Assembly (NCBI GenBank): GCA_029240815.1 | Contig: JARDZO010000019.1 | Coordinates: 1 to 34,975, forward strand | Direction: 5' to 3' | Origin: Brevibacillus sp. | Lineage (GTDB): Bacteria > Bacillota > Bacilli > Brevibacillales > Brevibacillaceae | DNA: 34,975 bases | Shown here: positions 4,667 through 26,017 of the stretch, one piece after another | Numbering within the stretch: position 1 is the first letter of the stretch | Layout: every line of letters begins with the position of its first letter | The notes under the pieces: model-generated | Database searches by the model: none | What the model saw: the letters and a program-made list of their open reading frames with translations, nothing else | What the model was told of the DNA's origin: nothing | Translations under genes and position numbers: made by a program

Positions 4667-4703
4667 TACCCACACCTCCAGTTCAATTCAACCTGATCCG
4701 TAG

Positions 4704-5102
4704 CTAGACTAGCTTGAAATACGGCAGAGTGAGGTCATCGTCCACCTTCTCAAAGGTGACCGTCACGGGTTTGCCGATGGCAATGTCCTCCCGATTTCCA
4801 ATGATCCGCGACATCATCCGAACGCCCTCAGCCAGCTCGACAATCGCAACGACAAAGGGAGCTTGATCAGCAAATGGTCCAAACGCCCGATGAACAACCG
4901 TATAGCTGTAGATATTGCCCTGCCCGCTCGCCTGCGTCCATGAGACCTGATCGGAAAAGCAGTGCGGACATAAGAGCCGCGGATAAAAAATGTGCTTGCT
5001 GCAGTCATCGCAATGCTGGATCAATAGCTCGTTGTTATTCAAGCCATCCCAATATGGTTTGGAATCGCTATCGACCACCGGCTTTGGAATTTGGCCCGCC
5101 AT
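4704..5102 (-). CDS. DUF35 Zn-ribbon/OB-fold protein (132 aa)
   Basis: This is a DUF35-family protein: an N-terminal helix, a rubredoxin-like zinc ribbon with C31-x2-C34 and C45-x2-C48, then an OB-fold beta domain (about 55-130). Family members are non-catalytic partners of thiolase-like enzymes, as in BbsA with BbsB in toluene degradation and the DUF35 part of ChsH2 with Ltp2 in steroid side-chain degradation, where they help bind acyl-CoA or shape the active site. The ATG (5100-5102) follows the thiolase TAA (5104-5106) by a single base, with the GGGGAGGG ribosome binding site inside the thiolase coding end. The two are therefore translationally coupled and very probably form a complex. Confidence 0.9.
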   Translation of the reverse strand: MAGQIPKPVVDSDSKPYWDGLNNNELLIQHCDDCSKHIFYPRLLCPHCFSDQVSWTQASGQGNIYSYTVVHRAFGPFADQAPFVVAIVELAEGVRMMSRIIGNREDIAIGKPVTVTFEKVDDDLTLPYFKLV

Positions 5103-5103
5103 G

Positions 5104-6255
5104 TTAATCCCTCCCCAGAATAACAGTTGATGTGGATGAGAGGACGCCGCCCGTTCCGTTGACTAAAGCCAGCTTGGCGTTCTGCACCTGACGCTCTCCG
5201 CCTTCACCCCTGAGCTGGCGAGCTGCCTCGATCAGCAAAAAGATTCCGTACATGCCTGGATGGGTATAAGAGAGTCCTCCGCCGTTGGTATTCATCGGGA
5301 ACGCCCCGCCCGGTGCCGTTCTTTGTCCGCTGACAAACGCCCCGCCCTCACCAGGCTTGCAGAAGCCGAGCGCTTCCAAGGTGAGCAACACCGTGATGGT
5401 AAACGAATCGTAAATCTCGGCCACATCGATTTCGTCATGCGTCACGCATGCCATCTCAAAGGCGCGGAGGCCGGATTCACGCGCTCCGGTCATCGTCAAA
5501 TCAGGCATGTTGGCAATGGAATTGTGCGTATGCGTCTCCCCGTGTCCAAGAATCCAGACCGGCCGCTTCTTCGCCCGAGCCGCTGCGCGTGCTGATGCGA
5601 CTACTACAGCCCCTCCTCCATCCGTCACCAGGCAGCAGTCTAGAAGATGCAGCGGCTCTGCAATCATCCGGGAGTTCAGGACATCCTCGATCCCGATCGG
5701 CTCGCGCATCATCGCTTTTTCGTTTCGCATCGCCCATTTGCGCGTAGCCACTGCGATCTCTGCCAGCTGCTCCGATGTTGTCCCGTACTGATGCATGTGC
5801 CGCATAGCAGCCAACGCATAGGCACCGACTGTCATCGGCAAGCCAAAGGAACGCTCATACTGCTCGGTGAGAGGCGCAAAGGGAATTGCAGCGCCGCGGG
5901 CTGGATTGGAACGCTGGGTGCTGCCATAGGTGATCAGCGCGACATCGAACAATCCTGCTCGAATCCCTGCCAATGCATGCCCTACATGAGACTCAAACGA
6001 CGACCCGCCAATGTTGGTCCCGTCCGTGAATTTGGGCTTGATGCCCAAATATTCGCCCAGCATTAGATTGGGTGCCCAGGCCCAGTTTCCGGCCGTAAAG
6101 AGTGCATCCACATCGTCTTTTGTAAAACCGGCATCATCCAGCGCCGCTTTTGCCGCCTGCGCCTGCAATTGCAGCACGTTTTTACCTGGCACCAAGCCTA
6201 GATCAGACTCGGCGACCCCCACAATCGCCGCTATACGCTCGGATTTCAAAATCAC
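5104..6255 (-). CDS. Thiolase-like protein lacking nucleophilic Cys
   Basis: A thiolase-fold protein (383 aa) of the non-classical, SCP2/lipid-transfer type. Segment 79-92 (GTNIGGSSFESHVG) is where thiolases carry the nucleophilic Cys, but there is no cysteine in it. The second classical Cys region reads NGTGGVLSS (366-374), also without Cys. The histidine motif survives as YTHPGMYG (330-337), and EIYDSF (280-285) is typical of the subfamily. Such Cys-less members include Ltp2, an aldolase that splits beta-hydroxyacyl-CoA by retro-aldol reaction with a DUF35 partner. Here too DUF35 is the next gene, coupled by one base. A retro-aldol or other C-C lyase role is therefore more likely than thiolysis. 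The start is GTG 6253-6255, or TTG 6247-6249, which is better spaced (9 bases) from GGGGG. Confidence 0.85.
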   Translation of the reverse strand: MILKSERIAAIVGVAESDLGLVPGKNVLQLQAQAAKAALDDAGFTKDDVDALFTAGNWAWAPNLMLGEYLGIKPKFTDGTNIGGSSFESHVGHALAGIRAGLFDVALITYGSTQRSNPARGAAIPFAPLTEQYERSFGLPMTVGAYALAAMRHMHQYGTTSEQLAEIAVATRKWAMRNEKAMMREPIGIEDVLNSRMIAEPLHLLDCCLVTDGGGAVVVASARAAARAKKRPVWILGHGETHTHNSIANMPDLTMTGARESGLRAFEMACVTHDEIDVAEIYDSFTITVLLTLEALGFCKPGEGGAFVSGQRTAPGGAFPMNTNGGGLSYTHPGMYGIFLLIEAARQLRGEGGERQVQNAKLALVNGTGGVLSSTSTVILGRD

Positions 6256-6264: not shown

Positions 6265-7509
6265 CTAAACTGTTTTCTGAACTGAATTTGATTGTTGGTG
6301 TGCCGATATCTTCTTCTCTCGGTATGTCCAGATCAGGAAGGCACCGACCGTCAGGAGCAATAGTCCTCCGGAGAAGAAAAACGGACTGCTCGCATGCAGA
6401 GAAAACAACCATCCGGCAATCAACGGCCCCAGCGTGCGCCCCAAGCTACCCACCGTGTTGTAGGAACCAAAACCGCTGCCCTGCAATGCTGCCGAGATCC
6501 GCAATGAGATGCCTGTCGTAATCGAAGGAAAAGCAAGACCGCGACAAAGGGAAAGGAGCGCCACTGCGCCAAACGCCCACACCAACAAATGAGATAGTCC
6601 CAGGAGAAAGAAACCGACGGCCCCAAAGGAAAAACCAATCACAATCGTCATCATGTCTCCGTAGCGGGTAAAAATGCGGGCAAAGACTGTTGCCTGCGCA
6701 AGCGCACTCACCCCTGCATTCATCATGAACGCCCAGCCCGCCATCGTCTGCGTCGACTGCAGCGGTCCTGTGATGTAGTAGGATAGCGTAGAAGAAATAC
6801 TTGCGTCCGCCAACGCGATGATAAACGATCCGAACAGAAGCGGCGCGATCATTTTGTTTTTCAGCAGCAAGCCTAATCGTTTTACCCCAGCCACCCAAGC
6901 GTTGCCTTTATTCGCTTCCGGGCGGAAGGCTTCAGAAGCCCCTTCCCCAAGCTTGCTCCCTCGCGGCAAAAAGCGCATCGCCAAGAGTCCGTTGAGAATC
7001 GAAAGCAGCCCGACGCTGACAAACGGTACCCCGATACCAAAGATACTGAGAAAAGCTCCAACAGGCGGTCCAAAAATAAAACCGATGCCATTAATCGAGC
7101 CCATATAGCCCAGAATCCGCGGCCTTTCTTCTGGTCGTGTCAGTTCTGTCACCAACGCCATCGATGACGGGGAAACCGCTGATGCCATTACCCCGGCTAG
7201 AAAGCGCAGGACAAGCAATACCGAGATATTGGGTGCCAGCGCCAAGAGTGCTGATGATAGGCCATAGCCGACTATGCCCATGATCAAAACGGGTCGACGG
7301 CCGAACCTATCACTCGCAGCACCCCAGAGAAAGCTGGAGAACAGGGACGCCACAGAGAATACCGAGATCGCCAGTCCCATCTGCAGGGGCGTAGCACCCA
7401 AATGCTGCGATAAAAAGGGCAAGGTGGGCAAGATTACCCCAAACCCCAAACTGGTGAGAAACATGGTTGAGAGCAGTAGCCAAATGGAAGCCTTTCGCGT
7501 GAGATCCAC
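6265..7509 (-). CDS. MFS transporter, DHA1-like (414 aa)
   Basis: Twelve-helix major facilitator permease with motif A between helices 2 and 3 (GAASDRFGRRPVL), a proline- and glycine-rich helix 5 region (GFIFGPPVGAF) and a cytoplasmic linker around 185-215. These fit the drug:proton antiporter-1 group; by position inside the operon an organic acid or its metabolite is as likely a substrate as a drug. GTG 7507-7509 is the first possible start because an in-frame TGA (7516-7518) lies just upstream. The AGAGGG ribosome binding site abuts the GTG with no spacer, which is odd, and the next ATG (residue 16) has no such site. It lies 28 bases after the MaoC gene and 9 bases before the thiolase-like gene. 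Confidence 0.88.
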   Translation of the reverse strand: MDLTRKASIWLLLSTMFLTSLGFGVILPTLPFLSQHLGATPLQMGLAISVFSVASLFSSFLWGAASDRFGRRPVLIMGIVGYGLSSALLALAPNISVLLVLRFLAGVMASAVSPSSMALVTELTRPEERPRILGYMGSINGIGFIFGPPVGAFLSIFGIGVPFVSVGLLSILNGLLAMRFLPRGSKLGEGASEAFRPEANKGNAWVAGVKRLGLLLKNKMIAPLLFGSFIIALADASISSTLSYYITGPLQSTQTMAGWAFMMNAGVSALAQATVFARIFTRYGDMMTIVIGFSFGAVGFFLLGLSHLLVWAFGAVALLSLCRGLAFPSITTGISLRISAALQGSGFGSYNTVGSLGRTLGPLIAGWLFSLHASSPFFFSGGLLLLTVGAFLIWTYREKKISAHQQSNSVQKTV

Positions 7510-7537: not shown

Positions 7538-7963
7538 TCAGGCGGTCTGATAGTACGTAAGCGCCGCTTCCCCGACTGTTAAGGCTTTTCCCTCTTCTCG
7601 TTCAATACGAACTTCCAGATCGACAGTACGCCCGGCCTCGTCCTTGGCTACCACTTTTGCGTGGCAGGTCAGTACATCTCCGGGAAAAACCATTCCGGCA
7701 AAACGCACTTTCAACCGGCTCACAAACCCATGCGTTCCTACGATCCCGGCAGCATGCTCTGCGAGAAAGCCCATGCTCAGCATGCCGTGTGCGATAACGC
7801 CAGGAAGTCCTACCTTGCGCGCCGTCTCGTCATCCGTATGAATCGGATTAAAGTCTCCGGAAGCTCCTGCGTATTTAACCAACTGCACTTTATCAATAGC
7901 GGTTTGAATCAATGGTTCCAACTTCTGTCCTACCTCGATTTCGTCCCAACGAATCGACTGCAT
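7538..7963 (-). CDS. MaoC-family enoyl-CoA hydratase (141 aa)
   Basis: A single hotdog-fold protein of the MaoC/R-hydratase family, which adds water to trans-2-enoyl-CoA. The catalytic pair is visible in GDFNPIH (residues 36-42: Asp37 and His42), and GLPGVIAHGML (52-62) is the conserved oxyanion segment. Length is typical of one hotdog unit. The start ATG 7961-7963 has GGAGG seven bases upstream. It lies 26 bases after another hotdog gene that lacks the catalytic His. Together they probably form a heteromeric hydratase such as ChsH1-ChsH2 or mycobacterial HadAB, with this chain carrying the active residues. Confidence 0.9.
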   Translation of the reverse strand: MQSIRWDEIEVGQKLEPLIQTAIDKVQLVKYAGASGDFNPIHTDDETARKVGLPGVIAHGMLSMGFLAEHAAGIVGTHGFVSRLKVRFAGMVFPGDVLTCHAKVVAKDEAGRTVDLEVRIEREEGKALTVGEAALTYYQTA

Positions 7964-7989
7964 TGGCTATCCTCCCTTCCTGATCAGCC

Positions 7990-8412
7990 TTACAGAATTA
8001 TCGTGCTTCTTCCCGTGAACACCAGATTGCCGTCCAAATCCTCGCCGCGGATTTCCGTCACCAGAAAGGTCATCGCCCCCAGCTTCCCTGCGCGCTCGTA
8101 CACATCCACTACCTTGCTAGAGCAGCGCAGCGACTCGCCTGCGACAATCGGCCGAACATAGCTATACTCTTGCTCGCCATGCAGCACACGCGCCGCCTTG
8201 ATTTGAAGATTGGGATTGGGTACACGAAATGTGGTCGGGAATGTCGGTGGTGCAACCAAACTGGCAAAGCCCTGTTTTTTCGCAAATTCCTCATCCGTAT
8301 ATAGAGGATTGGGGTCGCCAATCGCATTGGCAAATGTCCGGATTGCGCCTTTCTCGATCTCTATCACTTTCGACTCACTTGTACTGCCAATCACACTGCG
8401 ATCAAGTACCAA
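7990..8412 (-). CDS. FAS1-like hotdog dehydratase subunit (140 aa)
   Basis: This is a MaoC_dehydrat_N/FAS1-like hotdog protein. The place of the catalytic motif reads GDPNPLYTD (32-40): the Asp is kept but the His is Tyr38. In characterised heterodimeric hydratases the N-terminal-type subunit likewise lacks the catalytic His and instead makes room for a bulky acyl chain. A structural, substrate-binding subunit paired with the next gene is the best inference. The start is TTG 8410-8412, chosen because GGAGG lies 8 bases upstream and no ATG is nearby. It sits 34 bases after the acyl-CoA dehydrogenase. Confidence 0.87.
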   Translation of the reverse strand: MVLDRSVIGSTSESKVIEIEKGAIRTFANAIGDPNPLYTDEEFAKKQGFASLVAPPTFPTTFRVPNPNLQIKAARVLHGEQEYSYVRPIVAGESLRCSSKVVDVYERAGKLGAMTFLVTEIRGEDLDGNLVFTGRSTIIL

Positions 8413-8446: not shown

Positions 8447-9613
8447 TTACAAGAGCTCGCCCACTTTCACATGGCCTTTGAGCAGATTGCGGGAGATCGT
8501 CCGTTTTTGAATCTCATCCGTTCCTTCAAAAATGCGCCACAACCGCGCTTCACGATACCAGCGCTCGATAGGCAGCTCTTTGGTGTAGCCCATACCACCG
8601 TGAATTTGCAGCACGCGGTCCACGACCTGGTTGGCCATGACTGATCCGTACAGCTTGGCGATGGAGGATTGGTGACGAGCGTCCATGCCGTTCTCCACCA
8701 TCCATGCGGCGCGCAGCACGATCCATTTAGCAGCTTCGATCTCCACTGCGGAATCCGCAATCATCCATTGAATCGCTTGACGCTCTGCGATCGGTTTGCC
8801 AAAGGTTACGCGCTGTTTCGAATAATCAATTCCCATTTGCAGCAGACGTTCAGCGGCCCCCACTGCGCGGGCTGGAATCGCCCAGCGTCCTTGACCGATC
8901 CATTTCATACTCAGATTAAAGCCCTTGCCCAACTCTCCCAGAATGTTCGCTTCGGGCACACGGACGTTTTCAAAGACGAGAGAGGCAGGTCCCCATTCGC
9001 CCATCGTCGGAATATTTTCCGAGCGCCAGCCCATATCGCGATCCACCAAGAAGCAGGTTACACCGCCATCTGCCCCTTTTTCCTTGTCCGTTACCGCGAA
9101 TACCATCACGAAGTCCGCTTCATTTCCGTTGGTGATGAATGTTTTTTCCCCATTCAGCACATATTCGTTGCCATCCTTGACTGCCGTCATGCGAATGCTC
9201 CGTGCATCCGAACCAGCTCCTGGCTCTGTGATCGCAAAGCAGGAACGGCGCTCTCCATTAATGAGCGGGATCAAATATTTTTGCTTTTGTTCTTCATTGC
9301 AGTGATACAAAATGTTATCCGCGCTGCCACCGAAGTTAAACGGGACGAAGGTTCTGCCCAGCTCCATCGTGATCAATGCGCTCATAATCGGACCGAGATT
9401 GGCTCCGCCGTATTCCTCCGGGGTATTAATGCCCCAGAATCCCGCCGCTTTCGCCTTTTGCTGCAGTGCCTTCACTTCTTCGCGCGAGATGCCTGGCTTG
9501 CCTTCACGCTCGTTGCGCAGCACCTGCTGCTCGTATGGCATGACTTCCTTCTGTACGAAATCTCGCACGGTACGCTGCACCATTCGTTGCTCATCGGATA
9601 ATGTGAAATCCAT
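8447..9613 (-). CDS. Acyl-CoA dehydrogenase (388 aa)
   Basis: FAD-dependent acyl-CoA dehydrogenase of normal length, with three domains: helical N-domain (1-120), beta domain with the flavin signature CFAITEPGAGSD (125-136) and helical C-domain. The catalytic base is the Glu in the RIFEGTDEIQ segment (about residue 363), and MGYTKELPIERWYRE matches the C-terminal family signature. It oxidises an acyl-CoA to the 2-enoyl-CoA and passes electrons to ETF, whose genes head the same operon. ATG 9611-9613 has GGAGG 8 bases upstream. The gap to the SDR gene before it is only 19 bases. The substrate is unknown. Confidence 0.95.
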   Translation of the reverse strand: MDFTLSDEQRMVQRTVRDFVQKEVMPYEQQVLRNEREGKPGISREEVKALQQKAKAAGFWGINTPEEYGGANLGPIMSALITMELGRTFVPFNFGGSADNILYHCNEEQKQKYLIPLINGERRSCFAITEPGAGSDARSIRMTAVKDGNEYVLNGEKTFITNGNEADFVMVFAVTDKEKGADGGVTCFLVDRDMGWRSENIPTMGEWGPASLVFENVRVPEANILGELGKGFNLSMKWIGQGRWAIPARAVGAAERLLQMGIDYSKQRVTFGKPIAERQAIQWMIADSAVEIEAAKWIVLRAAWMVENGMDARHQSSIAKLYGSVMANQVVDRVLQIHGGMGYTKELPIERWYREARLWRIFEGTDEIQKRTISRNLLKGHVKVGELL

Positions 9614-9632: not shown

Positions 9633-10391
9633 TTAGCGACTGCCGCCGTTTATATAAATGACTTGACCAGACACATAGCTTGCATCCTCACTCACCAGAT
9701 ACGCCACCAGATTTGCCACGTCCTCAGGCTGGCCTACACGGCGCAAAGGAATCCGCTGGGAAGCCATCCGTTGGTTCTCCTCAAAATCAGCACCTACCCG
9801 CTCTGCTGTTTGACGCGTCATGTCGGTGGCGATGAAGCCAGGGGCGACAGCATTGACATTGATGTTAAAAGGGCCAAGCTCGATCGCCAGCGTCTTCGTA
9901 AAGCCCTGCAAGCCTGCCTTGGCTGCGGAATAGTTAGCCTGCCCGCGATTACCCAATGCAGAGGTGCTGCTCGTATTGACGATTTTTCCGTAGCGCTGCT
10001 CCACCATGTACTTTTGCGCCGCACGACTGCACAAAAAGCTTCCCTTTAGATGCACGTTCATGACCGTATCCCAGTCATCATCGCTCATTTTAAAAAGCAG
10101 ATTATCCCGCAGCACACCTGCATTGTTCACCAGAATATCAAGTCGGCCAAACTGAGAGGCCACCTTGGCAAAAGCACCTTCTACGTCTTTGGCGTCTGCC
10201 ACGTTGCAGCCGATGGCTATCGCTTCTCCGCCTGCTTCCTTGATCAACTGCACGGTTTCCACGCAGGCTTCCTCTTTCAGATCGATTACGCCAACCTTTG
10301 CGCCGTCTTTCGCCAGTCGCCGTGCCGTAGCCGCTCCAATACCGCGACCAGCCCCCGTCACCACCGCTACCCTGCCTGTCAACTGCCCCAT
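9633..10391 (-). CDS. SDR oxidoreductase, FabG-like (252 aa)
   Basis: A classical short-chain dehydrogenase/reductase. It shows the nucleotide-binding TGAGRGIG (12-19), NNAG (89-92), and the catalytic Ser142, Tyr154 and Lys158 (YSAAK). The C-terminal YVSGQVIYINGG segment is typical of 3-oxoacyl-ACP/CoA reductases and hydroxyacyl-CoA dehydrogenases. Asp37 after the second strand (VGVIDLKE) suggests a preference for NAD(H). In this catabolic setting oxidation of a hydroxyacyl-CoA, or of an alcohol after C-C cleavage, is more likely than fatty acid synthesis. The frame is open to 10439, but ATG 10389-10391 has AAGGAGG seven bases upstream and avoids overlap with the preceding gene. Confidence 0.93.
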   Translation of the reverse strand: MGQLTGRVAVVTGAGRGIGAATARRLAKDGAKVGVIDLKEEACVETVQLIKEAGGEAIAIGCNVADAKDVEGAFAKVASQFGRLDILVNNAGVLRDNLLFKMSDDDWDTVMNVHLKGSFLCSRAAQKYMVEQRYGKIVNTSSTSALGNRGQANYSAAKAGLQGFTKTLAIELGPFNINVNAVAPGFIATDMTRQTAERVGADFEENQRMASQRIPLRRVGQPEDVANLVAYLVSEDASYVSGQVIYINGGSR

Positions 10392-10407
10392 TCCCAAACC
10401 TCCTTTT

Positions 10408-11340
10408 CTAAATCGCCCGATAGTGGGCCACTTTGCCAACCATCTGAACCGCGGCTCTTGCCTGCTCTTCCAGCAGATCTAAATGCCCCTGAATTTCCGA
10501 TAGCCCTAAAAAGATCGATCTCCCCTGTAAAAACGGAAAAAGTGCTTGACTCAACTCATAGACCGAATGCGGATTCTCTCTCAAGTGCTCGTAGATCCGC
10601 TCGCAGCGCTCCTTTTGCTCGGCAAAACGCTTGTCAATCACCCGGCGATGCCCGCGATAGGCGGAACCGTGTCCGGGATAGATGGTGTGAAACGACAAAT
10701 CGTATGTCTTCCGTAGCGATTCCCGCAGCTGGACGAGCGGCTTTTCTCTCTCTTTTTGATCCTGATCAGGCGGCACGATGAAAGCGTTTGCGGAAATATG
10801 TTCCAACAGGTAGTCCCCGACGAACGCATCCCCCGTCCTTTCATTCCACAAACAAATATCACTTTGACTATGTCCCGGCACATACAATACTTTTAGCTCT
10901 TCACCGCCAGCCGTTATCGTATCGCCATCTCTCACATACCGGACATGCCGCCATTCTTTGGGACGATAAGGCTGCTTGCGTTGAAAAATATCAGCGGCTC
11001 CACACCGCGCAATGAACGATGCAAAAAATGATTCCGTCTGCTCGTGAACCGCTTTTCCGGAAGTTAGCTGTCGCTGTGCTTGTTCGTGCACATAAATCGG
11101 AATGTCTACATGCCGCTGGATGTCCGTCACACCGCCACAGTGATCTTCATGCATATGGGTCACAATGATCTGCTGCAGGTCGTGAAGATCAAGCCCATGC
11201 GTCGCTAATCCCGCTTTTAACTGGTCCAACGATACTTGCCCTGGTATCCCGCAATCGATCAAGGTAACTGGATCACCGGCAAGTACGTAAACGTTCACGT
11301 CCCCCTCCGCGTATGCTGTTTCGATTTCAATTTGGATCAT
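10408..11340 (-). CDS. MBL-fold metallo-hydrolase, LACTB2-like (310 aa)
   Basis: Metallo-beta-lactamase-fold hydrolase with the binuclear metal motif THMHEDH (His62, His64, Asp66, His67), PGHSQSD, VGDYL (bridging Asp) and YPGHG. A C-terminal helical region of about 90 residues resembles the winged-helix tail of LACTB2-like proteins. Family members hydrolyse thioesters, lactones or other esters; in an acyl-CoA operon a thioesterase or lactonase role is plausible but not shown. ATG 11338-11340 gives a start typical of the fold. Its purine-rich site (GGAGGGG) is rather far at about 16 bases. An in-frame TTG at 11425-11427, 8 bases after AGGAGGG, would add 29 residues with a hydrophobic beginning. 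The SDR gene follows after 16 bases. Confidence 0.82.
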   Translation of the reverse strand: MIQIEIETAYAEGDVNVYVLAGDPVTLIDCGIPGQVSLDQLKAGLATHGLDLHDLQQIIVTHMHEDHCGGVTDIQRHVDIPIYVHEQAQRQLTSGKAVHEQTESFFASFIARCGAADIFQRKQPYRPKEWRHVRYVRDGDTITAGGEELKVLYVPGHSQSDICLWNERTGDAFVGDYLLEHISANAFIVPPDQDQKEREKPLVQLRESLRKTYDLSFHTIYPGHGSAYRGHRRVIDKRFAEQKERCERIYEHLRENPHSVYELSQALFPFLQGRSIFLGLSEIQGHLDLLEEQARAAVQMVGKVAHYRAI

Positions 11341-11553
11341 GCTTGAGATAGACTCGCCCCTCCCCTCTCTCTCTTTCTGAATGTTCACGCTTTTTATCAT
11401 TGCAACAACCGTGCCAGTGAAGAGCAAGACGGAATCCCTCCTGCTCTTCCACGCCATTAGCTTACGCTGCTCTATACCGATTCAATTTTGATTTACTCTT
11501 TTTGCCAAATCGAGATCAAACAAGCCACAACCGAGTAACTTATTTTTGACTTA

Positions 11554-12504
11554 CTAATTCATTTTTGTTTCACTCTTCACGCTTCCTTTTCCCACAAAGG
11601 CTGGACGCGTAAATTGCTCCACATAGTCTGGATTCAGCTTGTGAGCAAGAGCAAAGTCAAGAAAGTAATCGCCCAATGGCTCTCCGTTTCGAATCATTCG
11701 CTTCAAGTGCTTGGCGATTCCCATCTGCTCATTTCGGACGATAAATGCCGCCTGCTCATGGTCCTTGCGAAAATAGATGACGTCCTGCAGGATCAGCTCG
11801 GCGGGCGAGCAGCCTCTTTTTATCGCTTGCTTGATCCGCTCCTCGCGACGGTCAATGATCTCCAGGTACTGCTCCAGCTTTTTGGGATACTCCCCCTGCA
11901 ATACCATGCCCTTCTGGTGGGAGGTGAGCAAATATTTGGCTTCCACCTCAAGCGTCATGCGGGCAGAGGCAATAAATTGGTCGATGTCGCTGTCAGGTCC
12001 AAAGTACCAAGGTCCAAAGCTGGTCAGATCAATATCGCCGATCATCAGAATGCCATGCTCCGGGATGTAGGGGCAGCAAAAGCCCTCACTATGTCCTGGT
12101 GCATGAAGCATGATCACCGTCGTTCCTGACATATTGATTTCCTGCTCATAGGGATAGATCAGCTGTGCTGTTCCCGCTGCTTTCGTAGAATTCGTACCGG
12201 TGGCTTGACTCCGCCTCATTTCCGCAAACTGCAGGAGCCGGGTATAATCGTACGGGTTTGTAAGGATTTGCGTCTGATCAAACAGAGGCGTCCCGCTCGT
12301 ATGGTCGGGATGAAAGTGCGTCAAATAAATCTGCCGGATATTCTGCTGCTGCAAATAAGCGAAAACAGAAGGTCCGCCTCCGCAATCGATCAGCGTGCTC
12401 TCCCCCCCGCTCTTGTCGCGAATCAAGAGGGAGGTGGAGAATGGTGAGCGGCTCTGACTCTCTCCGATGACGATTTCCACTGGACCGATTTTTTCGTAAT
12501 TCAT
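11554..12504 (-). CDS. MBL-fold metallo-hydrolase (316 aa)
   Basis: A second metallo-beta-lactamase-fold hydrolase, clearly different from its neighbour. Metal ligands are THFHPDH (His63, His65, Asp67, His68), the His in APGHSEG, the Asp in GDIDL and the His in LLTSHQKG. The C-terminal third is helical and charged and may form a lid. Its start ATG 12502-12504 lies four bases after the etfA TAA, so the two are translationally coupled. Function is unknown; hydrolysis of a thioester, lactone or ester intermediate is the contextual guess. A gap of 213 bases to the next MBL gene is AT-rich and holds no promoter or terminator that I can defend. Confidence 0.85.
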   Translation of the reverse strand: MNYEKIGPVEIVIGESQSRSPFSTSLLIRDKSGGESTLIDCGGGPSVFAYLQQQNIRQIYLTHFHPDHTSGTPLFDQTQILTNPYDYTRLLQFAEMRRSQATGTNSTKAAGTAQLIYPYEQEINMSGTTVIMLHAPGHSEGFCCPYIPEHGILMIGDIDLTSFGPWYFGPDSDIDQFIASARMTLEVEAKYLLTSHQKGMVLQGEYPKKLEQYLEIIDRREERIKQAIKRGCSPAELILQDVIYFRKDHEQAAFIVRNEQMGIAKHLKRMIRNGEPLGDYFLDFALAHKLNPDYVEQFTRPAFVGKGSVKSETKMN

Positions 12505-12508
12505 GACT

Positions 12509-13483
12509 TTACCCCTGTGTCATCAGCACATTTTGAAATTCTGCCGTCAGAAGCGGCACTACTTCAAACAAATCGCCAACGATCCCGTAGTCCGCCACCT
12601 GAAAAATCGGTGCCTCCGGATCTTTATTGATGGCCACAATGCATTTGGAATTCGACATTCCTGCTAGATGCTGAATCGCTCCAGAGATGCCGCAGGCAAT
12701 GTACAGATCAGGCGTCACCACTTTACCGGTCTGCCCGATCTGCATCGCATAGTGGCAGTATCCGGCATCGCAGGCACCACGAGATGCGCCGACTGCACCG
12801 CCAAGCACATCAGCCAGCTCCTTTAATACCGCGAACCCTTCTGCGCTTTTGACTCCACGTCCACCGGAGATGATAATTTTCGCTTCGCTCAAATCGACGC
12901 CACCTGCGGTTTTTCGCACGATTTCTTTGACGATCGTTCGAATATCCTTGATCTCTGGTTGAAAAGGGACGATCTGCGTCTGCACCGGGTTCTCCACCGG
13001 TTGAAAGTTGTTGGCACGCAGCGTCGCAAAGATGACCCCTTCCTGAAATCCACGCTTTTGAAATGCTTTGCCCGCATAGATGGGGCGATCAAAGGCAAAG
13101 CTCCCCCCTCTGTCCTCAATCGCGGTGCAATCGGTGAGCAGACCAAGCCCCAAGCGAGCCGCCACCCGAGGTGCCACCTCTTTGCCAATCGCAGTATGGC
13201 CCATCAGGATGACATCAGGAGAAATCGCTTGAACCAGCTGGAGCAGCGTCTGTACATAAGCATCAGGTGTGTAGTCAGCCAGGACTTCATCCTCCGCCAC
13301 GTACAGCTTGTCGGGACCGTACCGGCTGATCGCCTCCACATGAGAAGCGCCTCCGTTTCCGATGAGTGCGGCGACAACTTCCCCACCCTCTGCCAGCTTT
13401 TGTGCCACCGTCAACGCTTCGAATGAGACATTTCTCAATTTTCCTTCTTTGGCTTCCGCAAGCACCATGACTTTCTTTCCCAT
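12509..13483 (-). CDS. etfA: Electron transfer flavoprotein alpha subunit
   Basis: EtfA (324 aa), the FAD-carrying subunit of the soluble flavoprotein that takes electrons from acyl-CoA dehydrogenases. The N-terminal domain has the alpha/beta Rossmann-like fold. The C-terminal FAD domain shows GGRGVKSAEGF and the family signature ISGAIQHLAGM followed by INKDPEAPIF and ADYGIVGDLFEV. The frame is open further upstream, but ATG 13481-13483 is preceded by AAAGGAGG and gives the expected N-terminus. It follows etfB by 16 bases. The nearest acyl-CoA dehydrogenase is in the same operon, and the likely acceptor is the membrane Fe-S protein at 16412-18478. Confidence 0.96.
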   Translation of the reverse strand: MGKKVMVLAEAKEGKLRNVSFEALTVAQKLAEGGEVVAALIGNGGASHVEAISRYGPDKLYVAEDEVLADYTPDAYVQTLLQLVQAISPDVILMGHTAIGKEVAPRVAARLGLGLLTDCTAIEDRGGSFAFDRPIYAGKAFQKRGFQEGVIFATLRANNFQPVENPVQTQIVPFQPEIKDIRTIVKEIVRKTAGGVDLSEAKIIISGGRGVKSAEGFAVLKELADVLGGAVGASRGACDAGYCHYAMQIGQTGKVVTPDLYIACGISGAIQHLAGMSNSKCIVAINKDPEAPIFQVADYGIVGDLFEVVPLLTAEFQNVLMTQG

Positions 13484-13499
13484 CGGTACTCCTCCTTTG

Positions 13500-14267
13500 T
13501 TAAATGACTTTCGCTTCTTTGCGCAGCAACTGAACCAGCTCACTCACTTGTTGTCCGAAATCGTCGGCGAGTATGCGCCCCGCTTTCTTTTGTGGTGGAT
13601 AAAATTGGTCGAGCACAATCGTCCGTGCAGCCAGCTCGTCTTTGTTCAGTCCCAAATCATCGACGGTTAGGCATTCCAGCGGCTTTTTCTTCGCCTTCAT
13701 AATGCCGGGCAGAGAGGGGTAGCGCGGTTCATTCAGTCCTTGCTGCGCCGTCACCAACAGGGGTAACTGGACCTCGGCAACCTCTAGATCTCCTTCTACA
13801 TCGCGCTCTACGGTTGCTGTATTCCCCTCAATCACGAGCTTGGTCACAGCAGAGGCATGCGCGATGTCCAGTGCTTCTGCCACTCGCAGCGCCACTTGGC
13901 CGGCACCCGAATCTACTGCCATATTGCCGCCTAGTACGAGGTCAAAGGAGCGCGTTTTAATGGCTGCCGCCAGCAGCTGAGAGATCGTCCATTCGTCGCA
14001 TTCGAGGTCTTCCGAATCAATCCGTACGCCTCGATCCGCTCCCATCGCTAGCGCGGTGCGGATCGCATCCTCCGTCCGCTGCGGCCCGACCGTGATCACC
14101 GTGACTTCACCGCCAACCTCTTCCTTGAGCTTGACAGCCTCTTCAATCGCATACTCGTCGTATGGGTTGATGATGAACTGCACCCCATCTTCATTGATTT
14201 TCCCATTCTGCAGCACCACTTTTTCTTCCGTATCAAACGTTTGCTTTAGCAGTACCAAGATTTCCAT
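13500..14267 (-). CDS. etfB: Electron transfer flavoprotein beta subunit
   Basis: EtfB (255 aa), partner of EtfA and binder of AMP in classical ETFs. The sequence begins MEILVLLKQTFDTEE and contains the beta-subunit signature LNEPRYPSLPGIMKAKKKP (about 178-196), which includes the recognition-loop region that docks dehydrogenases. It is the first gene after the sigma54 promoter at 14325-14340, with ATG 14265-14267 and GGGAGGG a few bases upstream. Expression of the entire downstream operon is thereby probably tied to the adjacent activator. Confidence 0.96.
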   Translation of the reverse strand: MEILVLLKQTFDTEEKVVLQNGKINEDGVQFIINPYDEYAIEEAVKLKEEVGGEVTVITVGPQRTEDAIRTALAMGADRGVRIDSEDLECDEWTISQLLAAAIKTRSFDLVLGGNMAVDSGAGQVALRVAEALDIAHASAVTKLVIEGNTATVERDVEGDLEVAEVQLPLLVTAQQGLNEPRYPSLPGIMKAKKKPLECLTVDDLGLNKDELAARTIVLDQFYPPQKKAGRILADDFGQQVSELVQLLRKEAKVI

Positions 14268-14324
14268 TTGTGTCCCTCCCTTTTTTCATGCCTTTTCTTA
14301 AAGTTGGATATATTGGTTTCTTGA

Positions 14325-14340
14325 AGCAAAAAGTGTGCCA
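14325..14340 (-). promoter_or_regulatory. Sigma54 (-24/-12) promoter of etfBA operon
   Basis: On the minus strand TGGCAC-ACTTT-TTGCT matches the RpoN consensus TGGCAC-N5-TTGCW exactly, with the invariant GG and GC ten bases apart. The expected start of transcription is near 14314, about 47 bases upstream of the etfB ATG. The gene just upstream encodes a sigma54-dependent activator. Confidence 0.88.
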
Positions 14341-14375
14341 TAAGGAGGGGCGGCTCCTGAATAGAGGACAGTTCC

Positions 14376-14410
14376 AAAAAAAAAGCAGCCTCCCATCGCT
14401 AGGAGGCTGC
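14376..14410 (-). terminator. Terminator of the sigma54-activator gene
   Basis: GCAGCCTCC (14385-14393) and GGAGGCTGC (14402-14410) form a perfect 9-bp GC-rich stem followed on the minus strand by nine Ts. It ends transcription of the activator 24 bases after its stop codon and isolates the sigma54 promoter of etfB. Confidence 0.95.
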
Positions 14411-14433
14411 CTCATTATTCCGCTATTTTCCCA

Positions 14434-16110
14434 TTACAGCTTGTATTTTTTCAGCTTTCTGACGATCGTTGCCTGGCTCGTTCCCAGTTCCTCCGCCATC
14501 TTATAGGTGCTCTGGAATTTTTGTACGGCGAGTGCGAGAATTTCTCGCTCAGCGATCTCGGCTGCTTCTTTTAAGGTCATGACTCTGTTTAGTTCATTGG
14601 ATGAGTGGCTTCCTGTACATTCGCAGTCCATGTAGTCAACTGGCAGATCCTCGACCATGATGATACTCGAAGGGACGGTGAGAACCAGTCGTTCGACCAA
14701 ATTTGTCAGTTCGCGGACGTTTCCCGACCATTTGTAATTGTAGAAGAAGTGCTCCAGTTTATCGTCAAAAGTTTTCTCCATCTTATATTTTTGATTCACT
14801 TTCTCGAGCACATTTTTGGCAAGCGGAACGATATCTTCCTTTCGCTCGCGTAATGGCGGAATGGAAATTGGCAGGACGTTAAGCCGGAAGAACAGATCTT
14901 CTCGAAACTTGCCCTCTGCCACCATCTGCTTTAAATCGCGATTTGTGGCTGCGATTAAACGCACATCGATTTTTTTGGATTTCGTCGCACCGATGCGCTG
15001 GATTTCCTTTTCCTGCAGCACCCGCAGCAGCTTCACTTGGAGAGCGAAAGGCAGCTCGCCAACTTCATCCAAAAAAAGCATCCCATTGTCCGCAAGCTCG
15101 AACATGCCTGGCTTTCCTGTTTTGTTGGCTCCCGTAAAGGCTCCCGCCTCGTAGCCAAACAGCTCCGACTCCAGCAGATCGTAAGGGATGGCTCCACAGT
15201 TTACCTTGATGAAGTCGCCCTTTTGGCTGCGCTTGCTGGAAGTGTAGAGATGCCGCGCCAGCACGTCCTTTCCGACACCGGTTTCGCCTAAAATGAGAAC
15301 GGTAGCGTCTACATCCGCCACCCGCTCTGCCATATCGTAAATATCGATCATCTGCTTGCTTTCGATTACCACATCCGAGTCAATCTGCTTCAGTTTGCAT
15401 TTCAGCATGTCCAGCTCGAGGCGATACTGGTTGTTCAATTCAAAGGCACGCTGCAGCTCATTATAAAAGTGATTAACCTCCGTCAGGTCCCTTACGTTCG
15501 TGATGATTTTGTCAATTTCGCCGTTCTCCTTAAAAATCGGGATCCCTGTTGCAAATGCCTTCCTCTCCGCCAATTGATAAACGTAATCGACTCGTTTTCT
15601 CTCCTCTAGCACTTTTAAGGTGATGGAACGCTTCAACGTCCCTTCCTTGACCAGATCGGAAACGTTGTGCCCGACAAAACAGTGCTTGGGATAGCCCGTC
15701 ATCTTTTCGATCGCGGAATTTACCTTTAGCGTCACACCCGTCTCATCGGTGATGTAGATGCCATCATTGGAACTCTCCATCACGGCTTCCAGCTGCGTTT
15801 CCAGATTGGCAACCTCCTGCCGCATGTGCTGAACTTGCGTGGTATCCGCCACGATGTACAAGGTGAATGGCTGCCCTTCTACCTGGATGGAATGATGCAG
15901 CAAAACATAGGGATGATTATGTAAGGTAACCGAAACAAGAAAAGTTTCTTCTGGCTTCCATTGATCAAACACGGTTTTCACATCAGCACCAACAGTATCT
16001 CCTCCAGCTAGTCTGGCAAAAAGGAAATTGTAATGCTCGATACAGTCCTCTGCATTCGTAATTACCAAAGGAAAAGGTAGATACTCCAACCATTTTTGAC
16101 AATGCTGCAC
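14434..16110 (-). CDS. PAS-type sigma54-dependent transcriptional activator
   Basis: A bacterial enhancer-binding protein of 558 aa. Two PAS-like sensor domains (about 1-95 and 105-215) are followed by a short coiled linker and an AAA+ domain (about 250-490) with Walker A GETGVGKD (275-282), the sigma54-contact loop GAFTGA (323-328) and Walker B MLFLDEVGELP (344-354). The C-terminus is a Fis-type helix-turn-helix (TSQATIVRKLKKYKL). There is no receiver domain, so it probably senses a small ligand or flavin/CoA ester through PAS. The frame is open to 16191, but GTG 16108-16110 lies seven bases after AGGAGGG and removes an unlikely N-terminus. sigma54 promoters flank it on both adjacent operons, its probable targets. 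Confidence 0.95.
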   Translation of the reverse strand: MQHCQKWLEYLPFPLVITNAEDCIEHYNFLFARLAGGDTVGADVKTVFDQWKPEETFLVSVTLHNHPYVLLHHSIQVEGQPFTLYIVADTTQVQHMRQEVANLETQLEAVMESSNDGIYITDETGVTLKVNSAIEKMTGYPKHCFVGHNVSDLVKEGTLKRSITLKVLEERKRVDYVYQLAERKAFATGIPIFKENGEIDKIITNVRDLTEVNHFYNELQRAFELNNQYRLELDMLKCKLKQIDSDVVIESKQMIDIYDMAERVADVDATVLILGETGVGKDVLARHLYTSSKRSQKGDFIKVNCGAIPYDLLESELFGYEAGAFTGANKTGKPGMFELADNGMLFLDEVGELPFALQVKLLRVLQEKEIQRIGATKSKKIDVRLIAATNRDLKQMVAEGKFREDLFFRLNVLPISIPPLRERKEDIVPLAKNVLEKVNQKYKMEKTFDDKLEHFFYNYKWSGNVRELTNLVERLVLTVPSSIIMVEDLPVDYMDCECTGSHSSNELNRVMTLKEAAEIAEREILALAVQKFQSTYKMAEELGTSQATIVRKLKKYKL

Positions 16111-16218
16111 TTTGGTTCCCTCCTGAGTTTCATGATCGAGAGCGTTTTCAAAACGACAGCTGACGAAAATTCCACCAAGAAAAAAACACACGAATGAGCA
16201 ATTCCGTGCGAGCTTCCC

Positions 16219-16331
16219 TAGCTATTCAGTTCCCTTTTATTGTCATAGTTTAAATAGTACAACATTTCTGAATATTTGTCTTGTGCATTCTTGACTTTTC
16301 GTAATTCAACTATGACTTAGCTATTCGTTCC
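16219..16331. repeat. Paired repeats upstream of activator gene
   Basis: Between the activator and the Fe-S oxidoreductase gene, GTCATAGTT (16242-16250) and AACTATGAC (16308-16316) form a 9-bp inverted repeat. TAGCTATTCAGTTCC (16219-16233) recurs almost exactly as TAGCTATTCGTTCC (16318-16331). The stretch is AT-rich and must contain the activator's own promoter. The paired sites could be operators or enhancer sites. The rest of the 300-base gap holds only the terminator at 16370-16407. Confidence 0.5.
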
Positions 16332-16369
16332 ACACCAGGATACGCGGTGATTCACTTTTGCATTCCTGT

Positions 16370-16407
16370 AAAAACCCCCACGAACAGTTTTTTCATTCGT
16401 GAGGGTT
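16370..16407 (-). terminator. Terminator of Fe-S oxidoreductase gene
   Basis: AACCCCCACGAA (16373-16384) pairs with TTCGTGAGGGTT (16396-16407), a 12-base stem with one mismatch, followed on the minus strand by a T-run. It begins five bases after the stop codon of the oxidoreductase. Confidence 0.9.
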
Positions 16408-16411
16408 CCTT

Positions 16412-18478
16412 TTAGTTGGCGACCAGCGATCTCTCTACAATTTCCACGATGTCCAGCGCTTTTACTTGTTCTTCGACTTCCTTTGCTTTGATTCCGTCGC
16501 CTAGCATTGTCAGACAGTAGGGACAATTGCTGCCGATCGTCGTCGGACTTAATTGGAGTGCCTGTTCCGTTCGCTCCACATTGATGCGCTTTCCCTGTGT
16601 CTCCTCCATCCACATCATGCCACCGCCAGCCCCGCAGCACATAGCGTCCTGCCGATTTCGCTTCATTTCCAGTACAGTAACGCCGGGAACAGCTTGGAGG
16701 ATTTGCCGTGGAATGTCGTAGATGGCGTTGTAGCGGCCGATATAGCAGGAGTCATGATAGGCGACGGCCTCTTTGACCTCCTTGGTCGGAACGATGCGCC
16801 CTTCCTGAATCAGCTTCCAGATCAGCTCGGTATGGTGGTACACTTCCGCTTCCAGACCAAATTCGCGATACTCGTTTTGAAACGTATTATAGGTGTGCGG
16901 GCAGATCGTAACGATTTTCTTGACCTCGTATGCTTGGAACGTGGCGATGTTCTCCTGGCAGAGCTGCTGGAATAAAAATTCGTTGCCCATGCGTCTCGCC
17001 GTGTCCCCCGAGTTACGCTCCTCATTGCCCAGTATCGCAAATTTGACTCCAGCCACATTCATGATTTTGGCAAAGGCTTGCGCAATCTTCTGACTCCGGT
17101 TGTCAAAGGAGCCCATCGAGCCGACAAAAAAGAGATACTCGAACTCATCTGTTTCCTTCACGGTCGGGACGTAGAGATCCTCCCGTCCTTCCCGCCATTT
17201 GATTCGCTCTTTGCGGTTGATTCCCCACGGGTTGCTTTGCCGCTCGATATTTTGAAAATAGCGGGTAGCCTCGTGCGGCATATTCCCTTCCGTCAGCACC
17301 AGAAAGCGGCGCATATCAATGATCTTCTCCACATGCTCATTGGCTACCGGACACTGATCCTCGCAGTTGCGGCAGGTTGTACAAGCCCATAGCTCCTCCT
17401 CAGTGATCACTTCACCGATCAACTGCCTCGACGTATTCTCCGAAGTAACTGCAACTTCATCCATACCCGAACCAGCCATGCCTGTCCCGCCCCCTGGCTG
17501 AAAGACAAACCTGGGCATCCATGCCGTGCGCGAAGTAATGGCAGCTCCCTTTTCCGTGAGATGGTCACGCATTTTCACGATCAAATCCATTGGCGAGAGC
17601 GTTTTTCCTGTCCCTGATGCCGGACACATGTTTGTGCAACGCCCGCACTCCACGCAGGCGTACAGATCGATCAGCTGATTTTGGCGGAAATCCTCGATCT
17701 TCCCTGCTCCATACTGCTCCAGCGCTTCATTCTCAAAATCGATGGAGGTTAATTGGCCGACCGGCTTGGTATCGCGCAAGAGCACGTTGACCGGGGCAAA
17801 CAGAAGATGGGCATGCTTGGACTGTGGCACGTAGACCAGGAACGAAAGAAGTGTCAGCAAATGAACCCACCAGAACGCGTAAAACCACCCGCCTGCTGCC
17901 GCTTCGCTCATACCGGCAAACAAGTAAGCGATCACAGACGAGAAGGGGGCATGCCAGCCAGCCTCTTCTCCCAGCCAGCGTTGCTCTGCGGCGAGGCTAA
18001 GCAGAATGGAGGACATCAGCACAGTCAGAAAAATGATCACCAGCCCAGATTTCAGCCCCCGTTTCAGCCGCTTCAGCTTTTCCACATACCTGCGATAAAA
18101 GGCGTAGATGACTGTCAGCAAAACCAGAACAGTGGTGAGCTCCTGCAGCAGGCTAAAATATTTGTGCGCACTACCAATCGGGAAAACAAAGCCTTTGCTA
18201 AACCCTTTGATGATCAATTCGATTGCGCCCAGCTGCAAAATGATAAATCCATAAAACATGATGACATGCATGACTCCGCTTTTCTTGTCTTTCAGCAGCT
18301 TCTTTTGCCCAAACACGTTCACGAGGACTTCCTGTATTCGCTGTCGTGTATCCTCTTTCAGATTGGATTTGCGGCCCAGTCTGATAAAAACGACACGGCT
18401 GTAAACCACATGAGCAAACATGTACAACGCAAGTCCCGTTACAACGATAAAAGCTAACGCATTGAGCAGATCCAACAT
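16412..18478 (-). CDS. Membrane Fe-S ETF:quinone oxidoreductase (FadF/EMO-like)
   Basis: A 688-residue membrane protein. About six N-terminal membrane helices (residues 1-235, with conserved His suited to heme b) are followed by two 4Fe-4S motifs, C275-x2-C278-x2-C281-x3-C285P and C366-x2-C369-x2-C372-x3-C376P. Then come CCG/DUF224 cysteine motifs with C526, C578, CCG at 614-616, and C652/C655. This is the layout of B. subtilis FadF and of the ETF:(methyl)menaquinone oxidoreductases, which take electrons from reduced EtfAB to the quinone pool. It stands in for the ETF-QO found in proteobacteria and mitochondria. ATG 18476-18478 has AAAGGAT upstream; the 34 residues further upstream would begin inside the promoter and terminator. 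It has its own sigma54 promoter. Confidence 0.9.
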   Translation of the reverse strand: MLDLLNALAFIVVTGLALYMFAHVVYSRVVFIRLGRKSNLKEDTRQRIQEVLVNVFGQKKLLKDKKSGVMHVIMFYGFIILQLGAIELIIKGFSKGFVFPIGSAHKYFSLLQELTTVLVLLTVIYAFYRRYVEKLKRLKRGLKSGLVIIFLTVLMSSILLSLAAEQRWLGEEAGWHAPFSSVIAYLFAGMSEAAAGGWFYAFWWVHLLTLLSFLVYVPQSKHAHLLFAPVNVLLRDTKPVGQLTSIDFENEALEQYGAGKIEDFRQNQLIDLYACVECGRCTNMCPASGTGKTLSPMDLIVKMRDHLTEKGAAITSRTAWMPRFVFQPGGGTGMAGSGMDEVAVTSENTSRQLIGEVITEEELWACTTCRNCEDQCPVANEHVEKIIDMRRFLVLTEGNMPHEATRYFQNIERQSNPWGINRKERIKWREGREDLYVPTVKETDEFEYLFFVGSMGSFDNRSQKIAQAFAKIMNVAGVKFAILGNEERNSGDTARRMGNEFLFQQLCQENIATFQAYEVKKIVTICPHTYNTFQNEYREFGLEAEVYHHTELIWKLIQEGRIVPTKEVKEAVAYHDSCYIGRYNAIYDIPRQILQAVPGVTVLEMKRNRQDAMCCGAGGGMMWMEETQGKRINVERTEQALQLSPTTIGSNCPYCLTMLGDGIKAKEVEEQVKALDIVEIVERSLVAN

Positions 18479-18534
18479 CGGCAATTCATCCTTTCTTTGG
18501 TTGCTAGGAGTTCTTCGATCCTGCAAAAATGGAT

Positions 18535-18552
18535 TTGCAACACCTGTGCCAA
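18535..18552 (-). promoter_or_regulatory. Sigma54 promoter of Fe-S oxidoreductase gene
   Basis: TTGGCAC-AGGTG-TTGCAA on the minus strand is an exact -24/-12 match (GG and GC ten bases apart). The predicted transcription start near 18525 leaves a leader of about 47 bases before the ATG, almost the same geometry as at etfB. Two independent exact matches on either side of a sigma54 activator gene strongly support a shared regulon. Confidence 0.9.
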
Positions 18553-18560
18553 TATTGATA

Positions 18561-18600
18561 GAAGGAAAAAGAAAAACCATCAGGCTTAAAAACCTGATGG
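18561..18600 (-). terminator. Terminator of OPT-DUF917-DUF1177 operon
   Basis: CCATCAGG (18577-18584) pairs with CCTGATGG (18593-18600), followed on the minus strand by TTTTTCTTTTTCC. It separates the DUF1177 gene from the sigma54 promoter immediately downstream. Confidence 0.93.
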
Positions 18601-18634
18601 TCTTTTCAAGCAGCGGGGAAGATCTCGGCCCGCC

Positions 18635-19582
18635 TTATTTTTCCCCACCTATATTCCCCATGGTTTGCAGCACTTTCATCGATCCGTAGCGAGTGAGGAT
18701 ATGTGCATACTCTGCTTCATCATACAAAGTGGAAACGCCATTGGTAAACTCTTTTGCCACTTCTACCGCAAATTTGACTGCAAGCGCGATATCTGATTCA
18801 TGGCTGGCACCTGTACCGCAGCCTGGAACGGCTGTCTGCGCCGTAATCGCGACACCTACCACCGGAGCATCGGTGGCAACAGCTGGCTGCAGAATGCTGT
18901 TGATGTGGAACAGGTCATTCCCGTACGGTGTAATGTCCTGCATCGTAATCGGGAAAGTCACCGGAAGCTGTCCGGTGGTCATCTCCATAATACGGAGCAA
19001 ATCTTCGCTGATGCGAAGAATGTAGCCTTCTTTCACAGTCGGTGAGATCGCGATTCCTTTGTGATTGACGATGCGGTTGCCTTTCGTCGTATCGATAGAC
19101 AGAATCGCTTCCATCTCTGGAATGACTTCGTAGCGGTTCATGGTCAAAATATCGACTGGCGATCCCATAAAATCTACCGGCTCATGCGGCTGCGTAGGTG
19201 CATTTGGGCAAATATGCGTGCTGATGATGACATCGCCAGCGAGGATGTCGCCGTTTTTTTGCATATCCGCGAGCTTTAAGGCAGAGGCAATCGCTGCGAT
19301 CGCGCCATCTGCATCCGACACCATCCCGATTCGGCTCGGCCGTGCACCAATGCCGCCCAATCGTCCGATAATCCCGAAGGTTGGCGCAGTCCCGCCTGCG
19401 GCTTTCCCGTTCTTGCCCGGAATGACAATCTTGACGAAATCGGTGCTGCCTTCTTCCCCTGTTACGGTTTGTACGCTGACCGTCACCGCAGGATACGATG
19501 CAAATAGTTCCTTGATTGTTTCCCCATTGACATAAGCGCTATCCAGCGCTTCAAACACGGTGATAGTTTGTTTCCAAGACAT
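18635..19582 (-). CDS. DUF1177 family protein (315 aa)
   Basis: A soluble protein that I place in the DUF1177 family by overall sequence character and by its neighbours. It has a Gly-rich stretch (GIIGRLGGIGARPSRIGMVSD, about 90-110), an internal STHICPNAP motif with Cys and His, and CGTGASHESD near residue 255. These clusters of Cys, His and Asp suggest a metal-dependent or hydrolase-like site, but no activity is known to me. The start ATG 19580-19582 has GGGAGG upstream. It is the last gene of the operon, 35 bases after DUF917. Confidence 0.82.
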   Translation of the reverse strand: MSWKQTITVFEALDSAYVNGETIKELFASYPAVTVSVQTVTGEEGSTDFVKIVIPGKNGKAAGGTAPTFGIIGRLGGIGARPSRIGMVSDADGAIAAIASALKLADMQKNGDILAGDVIISTHICPNAPTQPHEPVDFMGSPVDILTMNRYEVIPEMEAILSIDTTKGNRIVNHKGIAISPTVKEGYILRISEDLLRIMEMTTGQLPVTFPITMQDITPYGNDLFHINSILQPAVATDAPVVGVAITAQTAVPGCGTGASHESDIALAVKFAVEVAKEFTNGVSTLYDEAEYAHILTRYGSMKVLQTMGNIGGEK

Positions 19583-19617
19583 GCTCGTTACCTCCCTGAT
19601 TATGGATGCATCGTTTT

Positions 19618-20679: not shown

Positions 20680-20708
20680 TTTGTTTCTCCTCCATCTCAA
20701 GCCGCTAT

Positions 20709-22313: not shown

Positions 22314-22360
22314 GTTCCTACCCCCTTTTTTAATTTTCTGTATGATTGCACAAAGACTGA

Positions 22361-25988: not shown

Positions 25989-26017
25989 GTCTCACCTCGC
26001 TCCTTTCGTTTGCCAGC

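Follow-up and report, generated by a model that had tools for sequence, protein, structure and literature searches.

A predicted sigma-54 regulon around a PAS activator gene in Brevibacillus, with three promoters and probable control of private etfBA and fadF genes from a distance

In a stretch of DNA from Brevibacillus sp., a gene for a sigma-54-dependent activator is situated between two exact -24/-12 promoters, which raises the question of whether a single sensor commands both of them. The window analyzed here is the whole stretch of 34,975 nucleotides (contig JARDZO010000019.1, positions 1 to 34,975). The initial annotation had assigned an acyl-CoA pathway to the promoter of etfB and its electron outlet to the promoter of an Fe-S ETF:quinone oxidoreductase gene, and had proposed that the activator between them controls both.

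All units of the cluster are on the minus strand, in the order fadF, the activator gene, etfB-etfA-MBL1, and an operon running from MBL2 to a CoA ligase gene. The activator of 558 aa (14434..16110, with a GTG start at 16110 and its stop at 14434) does lie between the two promoters, and it possesses a PAS domain, an AAA+ domain with the GAFTGA loop (PF00158, 2.1e-69) and an HTH_50 domain, that is, the sensor, AAA+ and HTH parts of a sigma-54 enhancer-binding protein. The 558-aa form is also present in the protein database. Its identification as PrdR was rejected, as NCBIfam NF041552 gave 392.5 bits against a cut-off of 795 bits. The gene behind the promoter of the electron outlet is indeed a membrane Fe-S ETF:quinone oxidoreductase gene of the fadF/etfD type (16412..18478, 688 aa), with CCG and Fer4 domains. 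Over residues 10-683, its product matches PDB chain 9ojn_A, 'Iron-sulfur-binding reductase' (E 3.6e-127), which may be mycobacterial EtfD.

The etfB unit consists of etfB (13500..14267, PF01012), etfA (12509..13486, PF01012 and PF00766) and MBL1, which encodes a metallo-beta-lactamase-fold hydrolase (11554..12504, PF00753). The remaining operon begins with another hydrolase gene of this fold, MBL2 (10408..11340, PF00753), the start codon of which is uncertain: hydrolase similarity begins near 11340, and relative G010 lacks an ATG at the position corresponding to 11340. It is followed by genes for a short-chain dehydrogenase (SDR; 9633..10391, PF13561), an acyl-CoA dehydrogenase (8447..9613; PF00441, PF02770, PF02771), two MaoC-type hydratase subunits (7538..8412, comprising 7990-8412 and 7538-7963; PF13452, PF01575), an MFS transporter (6265..7509, PF07690), an SCP-x/Ltp-type thiolase with a ChsH2-like OB-fold partner (4704..6255, comprising 5104-6255, PF22691, and 4704-5102, PF01796 and PF12172), and an ADP-forming type acyl-CoA ligase at the probable operon end (2507..4675; PF13607, PF13549). 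The ncbifam scan gave no specific name; the matches listed for the ligase were all below cut-off, and one subfamily was above cut-off for the thiolase, PRK06158 (acetyl-CoA acetyltransferase). The combination of a hydratase pair with a thiolase that has an OB-fold partner resembles, as we take it, the retro-aldol side-chain pathways of sterols, and we read the cluster as breaking down some acid. No Rfam match was found on 10300-19700 at E up to 0.1, and all matches in a plasmid search were below 60% identity. As well, window positions 18635-29010 hold a separate cluster of genes for DUF1177, an S-Me-thiohydantoin-desulfurase-like DUF917 protein, an OPT transporter, a PucR regulator, M28, DcuC and M20, which probably serves to break down an amino compound that is cyclic or N-substituted.

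Exact matches to TGGCAC-N5-TTGCW, in which GG and GC are spaced by 10 as in the sigma-54 consensus, are present before both genes on the minus strand. The one of etfB is at 14325..14340 (TGGCACACTTTTTGCT), exactly as first reported, and the one of fadF at 18536..18551 (TGGCACAGGTGTTGCA), one base less on each side than the span 18535-18552 given before. Both elements end 57 nt from their start codons (14267 for etfB and 18478 for fadF, the mechanical ORF start of the latter, 18580, being upstream of the promoter); the distance of about 47 bases to the ATG that had been noted for both is that from the predicted +1. The window also contains a third exact site at 11401..11416 on the minus strand (TGGCACGGTTGTTGCA), about 60 nt 5' of the MBL2-SDR-acyl-CoA dehydrogenase operon, which had been overlooked because it is enclosed in an over-long mechanical ORF (10408-11457). 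The acyl-CoA pathway proper thus sits behind this third promoter and not behind that of etfB, so the earlier assignment of promoter function needs correction. Three exact matches in the window compare with 0.033 expected from base composition, while matches with up to two mismatches (25 vs 21.8 in shuffles) are at chance level and carry no weight; a two-mismatch site at 32758-32773, before an MFS gene, was set aside for this reason.

All three promoters have recognizable counterparts in three relatives, the most distant of which has an activator of 74% identity. The activator shares 93-94% identity with those of Brevibacillus centrosporus (G001, NZ_RHHP01000003.1) and G010, which have the gene order of the window across the cluster, and 74% with that of G196, while the identity of fadF to the window copy is 93% in G010, 92% in G001 and 78% in G196. 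In G196, which lacks MBL2, the third promoter and its activator sites precede the SDR gene. Across the window and these relatives, GG and GC occur at the right spacing in all 12 promoter copies, seven of which have the strict consensus and five of which are one base off. The fadF site is kept in G010 and is one base off in G001 and in G196; the etfB site is kept in all three relatives, each time one base off; and the third is exact in G010, G001, G196 and also G015, and one base off in G009. The deviations are of two types, GTGCT, as in the etfB site of G010 and G001, and TGGCAT. In G009, etfBA-MBL1 stands in line after the genes of the third operon and has no sigma-54 site of its own.

A sigma-54 gene was found in the relatives: each of the four searched (G001, G010, G009, G015) has one PF04963 match for the sigma-54 gene. 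With G015 left out and weak PF00158 matches dropped (retaining 30 of 35 in G001, 36 of 40 in G010 and 31 of 36 in G009), 33 of 54 exact sites have an activator gene no more than 6 kb away, where 3.4 would be expected. The reversed pattern matched less often than the true one (2 vs 17 in G001, 6 vs 18 in G010, 8 vs 19 in G009 and 1 vs 11 in G015), and its matches suggest that some of the relatives' exact sites are there by chance.

It could be argued that the etfB and fadF sites merely look like promoters and that both genes are expressed from other promoters. Terminator-like hairpins precede both genes, one between the activator gene and the etfB promoter (14382..14413 on the minus strand, a 14-pair stem and a T tract) and one just 5' of the fadF promoter (18572..18605 on the minus strand, a 15-pair stem and a T tract), and indicate that both genes need a promoter of some kind, such hairpins being only slightly commoner in the region than in shuffles (15 vs 10.7). 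Against this explanation, which we regard as very improbable, stand the exact consensus with the identical distance to both ATG codons, the recurrence of each of the three sites in G010, G001 and G196 despite unalignable flanking DNA, and a scan of the region for sigma-70-type promoters, which found no excess over shuffles (9 vs 8.2). That the etfB, fadF and third sites are sigma-54 promoters within a catabolic regulon around the activator is, as a prediction from sequence, well supported.

The FadR (YsiA) regulon of B. subtilis includes etfBA and fadF along with acyl-CoA oxidation. Unlike that regulon, which consists of sigma-A genes under a repressor, the present cluster combines an activator and sigma-54 with second, dedicated copies of etfB and fadF. 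All of 26 Brevibacillus genomes carry fadF and etfB elsewhere, and G001 and G010 have the cluster copies additionally. A sigma-54 site precedes fadF in both cluster copies and in none of the 28 others, for which no such site was found within 350 nt. For etfB, both cluster copies have a site by the relaxed pattern (GTGC), whereas among the other 28 none has a strict and two have a relaxed site, the two exceptions (G016 and G017) being a poor site at -215. Since the fadF and etfB copies elsewhere are without strict sigma-54 sites, the sites seem to have come with the cluster.

Three further observations were made on fadF copies. In G001 (L204, C8), the housekeeping fadF, together with genes for a thiolase, a 3-hydroxyacyl-CoA dehydrogenase and an acyl-CoA dehydrogenase, adjoins a putative lysine 2,3-aminomutase gene that has its own sigma-54 activator. 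Sigma-54 control of this housekeeping fadF was considered and rejected, because the nearby exact site belongs to the neighbor gene beside the other activator, which we take to be kamA (lysine 2,3-aminomutase). As well, a further fadF copy with 78% identity is present in G007 (L142), where it contains an in-frame TAA, and in G023 (L143), with an etfB copy 10-20 kb off; no sigma-54 site was found upstream of these extra fadF copies.

The enhancer motif that the initial annotation had proposed to search for could be derived by comparison. A palindrome, GATTCA-N4-TGAATC, recurs 5' of sigma-54 promoters beside orthologues of the activator in other Bacilli and is the probable binding site of the activator. 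The orthologue loci with flanks numbered 43 (16 and 27 from two sets, with nine further matches having no locus), and three loci with fadF were set aside for the motif statistics, leaving 40. A sigma-54 site occurs within 1.5 kb after the activator gene in 32 of these 40 loci without fadF, and the motif (score at least 11.5, within 300 nt 5') accompanies 28 of these 32 promoters, or 20 of 23 when only loci outside matrix building are counted. Of the other eight loci, three (G204, G077, G221) have a promoter and the motif further on, before an acyl-CoA dehydrogenase gene. In most loci, about 50-65 nt separate the -24 element from the nearest copy; a second copy is located 44-75 nt upstream of that one, frequently followed by a third 18-20 nt beyond the second.

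The four promoters without the motif are those of L052, L113, L130 and L137, the last two of which reach a score of 11.2. Among the activator C-termini of 18 loci inspected (L050 being partial), those of L052 and L113 have TSQT in the recognition helix and the others TSQA or TSQP, possibly a change of specificity. Strict copies of the motif are rare genome-wide, with three places in G001, four in G010, four in G196 and two in G009, of which one, two, one and one, respectively, are in the cluster; a reversed-motif control found none in these four genomes. A similar motif pair lies beside a different activator gene in G015, so other activators may also read the motif.

Whether scored with the first matrix or with a second one trained only outside Brevibacillus (21 sites), the window has its four best hits in two places, one 5' of the third promoter and the other in the interval that separates fadF from the activator gene. 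The best site with either matrix is at 11479..11494 (AAATCAAAATTGAATC on the minus strand), leaving 62 nt between it and the -24 element of the third promoter; the second best is at 11556..11571 (GAAACAAAAATGAATT on the minus strand). A possible third, weak site between them (11537..11552, AAGTCAAAAATAAGTT) has a background-level score of 6.4 and was retained only for its 19-nt spacing to its neighbor, as seen elsewhere. In the fadF-activator interval, the third best site is at 16349..16364 (AATGCAAAAGTGAATC) and the fourth at 16303..16318 (AAGTCATAGTTGAATT), the latter at the same position in G010, G001 and G196; both the MBL1-MBL2 and the fadF-activator intervals carry the motif in these relatives too. 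Only one of 2000 column permutations of the second matrix matched its placement of the four best hits in both intervals, which had been picked after earlier motif results were known. A fifth hit (34143, score 13.2 with the first matrix) has no known promoter. The fadF-side sites score 15.3 and 13.5, within the range of the best hits in 20 random 35-kb sequences of the same dinucleotide make-up (10.5-15.6), so they would not stand out alone, and it is their position and recurrence that make the case. The third promoter is well supported, on motif placement, as the clear and standard target of the predicted activator.

The situation at the other two promoters is different. The motif was absent within 300 nt 5' of the etfB and fadF promoters in all eight copies (window, G010, G001, G196), where the best scores were 1.1 to 4.7 and -2.0 to 4.2, respectively, compared with 15.8-17.5 at the third promoter. 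The proposal that one sensor commands both promoters therefore finds only indirect support: the motif of the activator is next to neither of them, and if this activator controls them, it would have to do so from enhancers some 2-3 kb away. For the fadF promoter, the nearest site lies 2173 nt downstream; for the etfB promoter, it lies 1963 nt upstream, and the site cluster of the third operon is 2754 nt downstream. In four of four genomes, the sites are missing beside these two promoters and present elsewhere in the cluster, as in arrangements of the RocR/SoxR type. Moreover, the DNA 5' of the fadF promoter is unrelated in G196 and contains a shortened DUF1177 gene in G001, and the promoter is kept in both, which makes an upstream enhancer for fadF unlikely. 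The stretch in G001 (L080, about 12366-12768) has only the first third of DUF1177 just 5' of the fadF promoter, and matches to PucR and OPT there are incomplete or interrupted, reflecting either gene decay or assembly trouble.

A site serving fadF should accompany fadF. The motif lies between the activator gene and its upstream neighbor in four of four loci with fadF there and in two of 40 without (Fisher P 1e-4, window included), a contrast that fits this expectation and is overstated by the P value, as the four fadF loci are close kin. The two exceptions are L095 (G224, score 18.8) and L114 (12.5); G224 has neither a fadF nor a good sigma-54 site nearby. No fadF was found within reach of the orthologues without one next door in the 13 loci with long flanks. 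In G196, the motif cluster between fadF and the activator gene has spacings of 19 and 45 nt, as at ordinary targets.

Alternatively, the activator may drive the third operon only, the fadF-side sites serving its autoregulation and the sigma-54 promoters of etfB and fadF answering to another activator through an enhancer that escaped recognition. The lack of a motif near these two promoters would suit this explanation, as would the roughly 30 other activators in the cell, given 30 clear activator genes in G001 and 36 in G010. One fadF-side site precedes a weak sigma-A-like promoter of the activator gene by about 20 nt, a closeness that would allow autoregulation, and SoxR was reported to autoregulate from such a site (PMC4941409). 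We nevertheless consider this explanation rather unlikely, because the site before the activator gene goes with a fadF neighbor, because strict sigma-54 sites are missing from every fadF and etfB copy examined elsewhere in the 26 Brevibacillus genomes (relaxed ones preceding two etfB copies), and because the window, G001 and G196 have no fadF upstream sequence in common that could act as an alternative enhancer.

Two further features of the activator-gene leader were noticed. A hairpin with a T tract at 16187-16210 on the minus strand, kept in G010 and G001 and without an Rfam match, may act as an attenuator or mark where a short RNA ends. A sigma-54 site seen by eye in this leader (TCGCAC-N4-TTGCT) was rejected, since its spacing is wrong and GG is missing.

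A regulon of one activator and three sigma-54 promoters, with etfBA and fadF driven from a distance, is therefore the reading that we favor as reasonably probable. The PAS activator would bind the GATTCA-N4-TGAATC palindrome and, from the copies 60-170 nt 5' of the third promoter, would turn on the operon from MBL2 to the CoA ligase. The copies in the fadF-activator interval lie about 2.2 kb downstream of the promoter of the private fadF, which the activator might turn on from there by DNA looping, and the same copies, 2.0 kb upstream of the etfB promoter, might likewise drive the private etfBA, perhaps with a contribution from those of the third operon, 2.75 kb downstream. The PAS region of the activator would sense the inducing signal, so that acyl-CoA oxidation and the electron exit to the quinone pool would be switched on together by one intracellular signal. 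To judge from the placement of the sites, regulation of the etfB and fadF promoters is probably long-range. The more detailed proposal, that the three promoters share two enhancer clusters, acting in both directions across 2-3 kb, and that the fadF enhancer was gained together with fadF in this branch of Brevibacillus, has in our view about an even chance of being correct.

The distant shared-enhancer arrangement itself is already known from Bacillus. According to PMC4941409, RocR drives rocG of B. subtilis through a site situated 1.5 kb downstream, and SoxR acts on soxC of B. thuringiensis over at least 1.7 kb. The RocR regulon similarly has several -24/-12 promoters, a PAS activator and an enhancer behind one gene and before the next; unlike that regulon of arginine and glutamate catabolism, the present one concerns an acyl-CoA operon, an ETF and an ETF:quinone oxidoreductase, and its motif was derived here. 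The sox locus of B. thuringiensis, in the same source, also has its activator between target promoters and a shared site near the activator's own gene, whereas it serves sarcosine catabolism with divergent units and all units here have the same direction. The activators of B. thuringiensis include one sited between two target promoters (PMC4428206).

Sigma-54, acyl-CoA dehydrogenase and ETF already occur together in the predicted LeuR and CrbR regulons of Clostridiales (PMC6615313). As is proposed for the Brevibacillus cluster, sigma-54 and a dedicated activator would control an acyl-CoA dehydrogenase with its ETF; according to the same source, however, those systems are fermentative, with one operon, one promoter and adjacent sites, whereas three promoters and an aerobic-type ETF:quinone oxidoreductase are found here. 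A 2025 survey reported that acyl-CoA dehydrogenases are enriched among sigma-54 genes in Bacilli (PMC12316311), and Bacillus FadF has been linked to mycobacterial EtfD (PMC13083937); with regard to these proteins, only regulation is at issue here. A literature search by title and abstract, with subscription papers mostly outside it, found no treatment of the cluster or the motif.

The motif constitutes a testable prediction for a family of PAS sigma-54 activators whose genes, in species across the Bacilli, adjoin acyl-CoA genes, and the cluster offers a natural comparison of promoter copies with and without a nearby enhancer. Here a degradation pathway carries its own copies of electron-transfer genes under the same kind of switch. 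If the reading with two enhancer clusters is true, one PAS activator would switch the acyl-CoA operon together with a private, duplicated ETF and ETF:quinone oxidoreductase.
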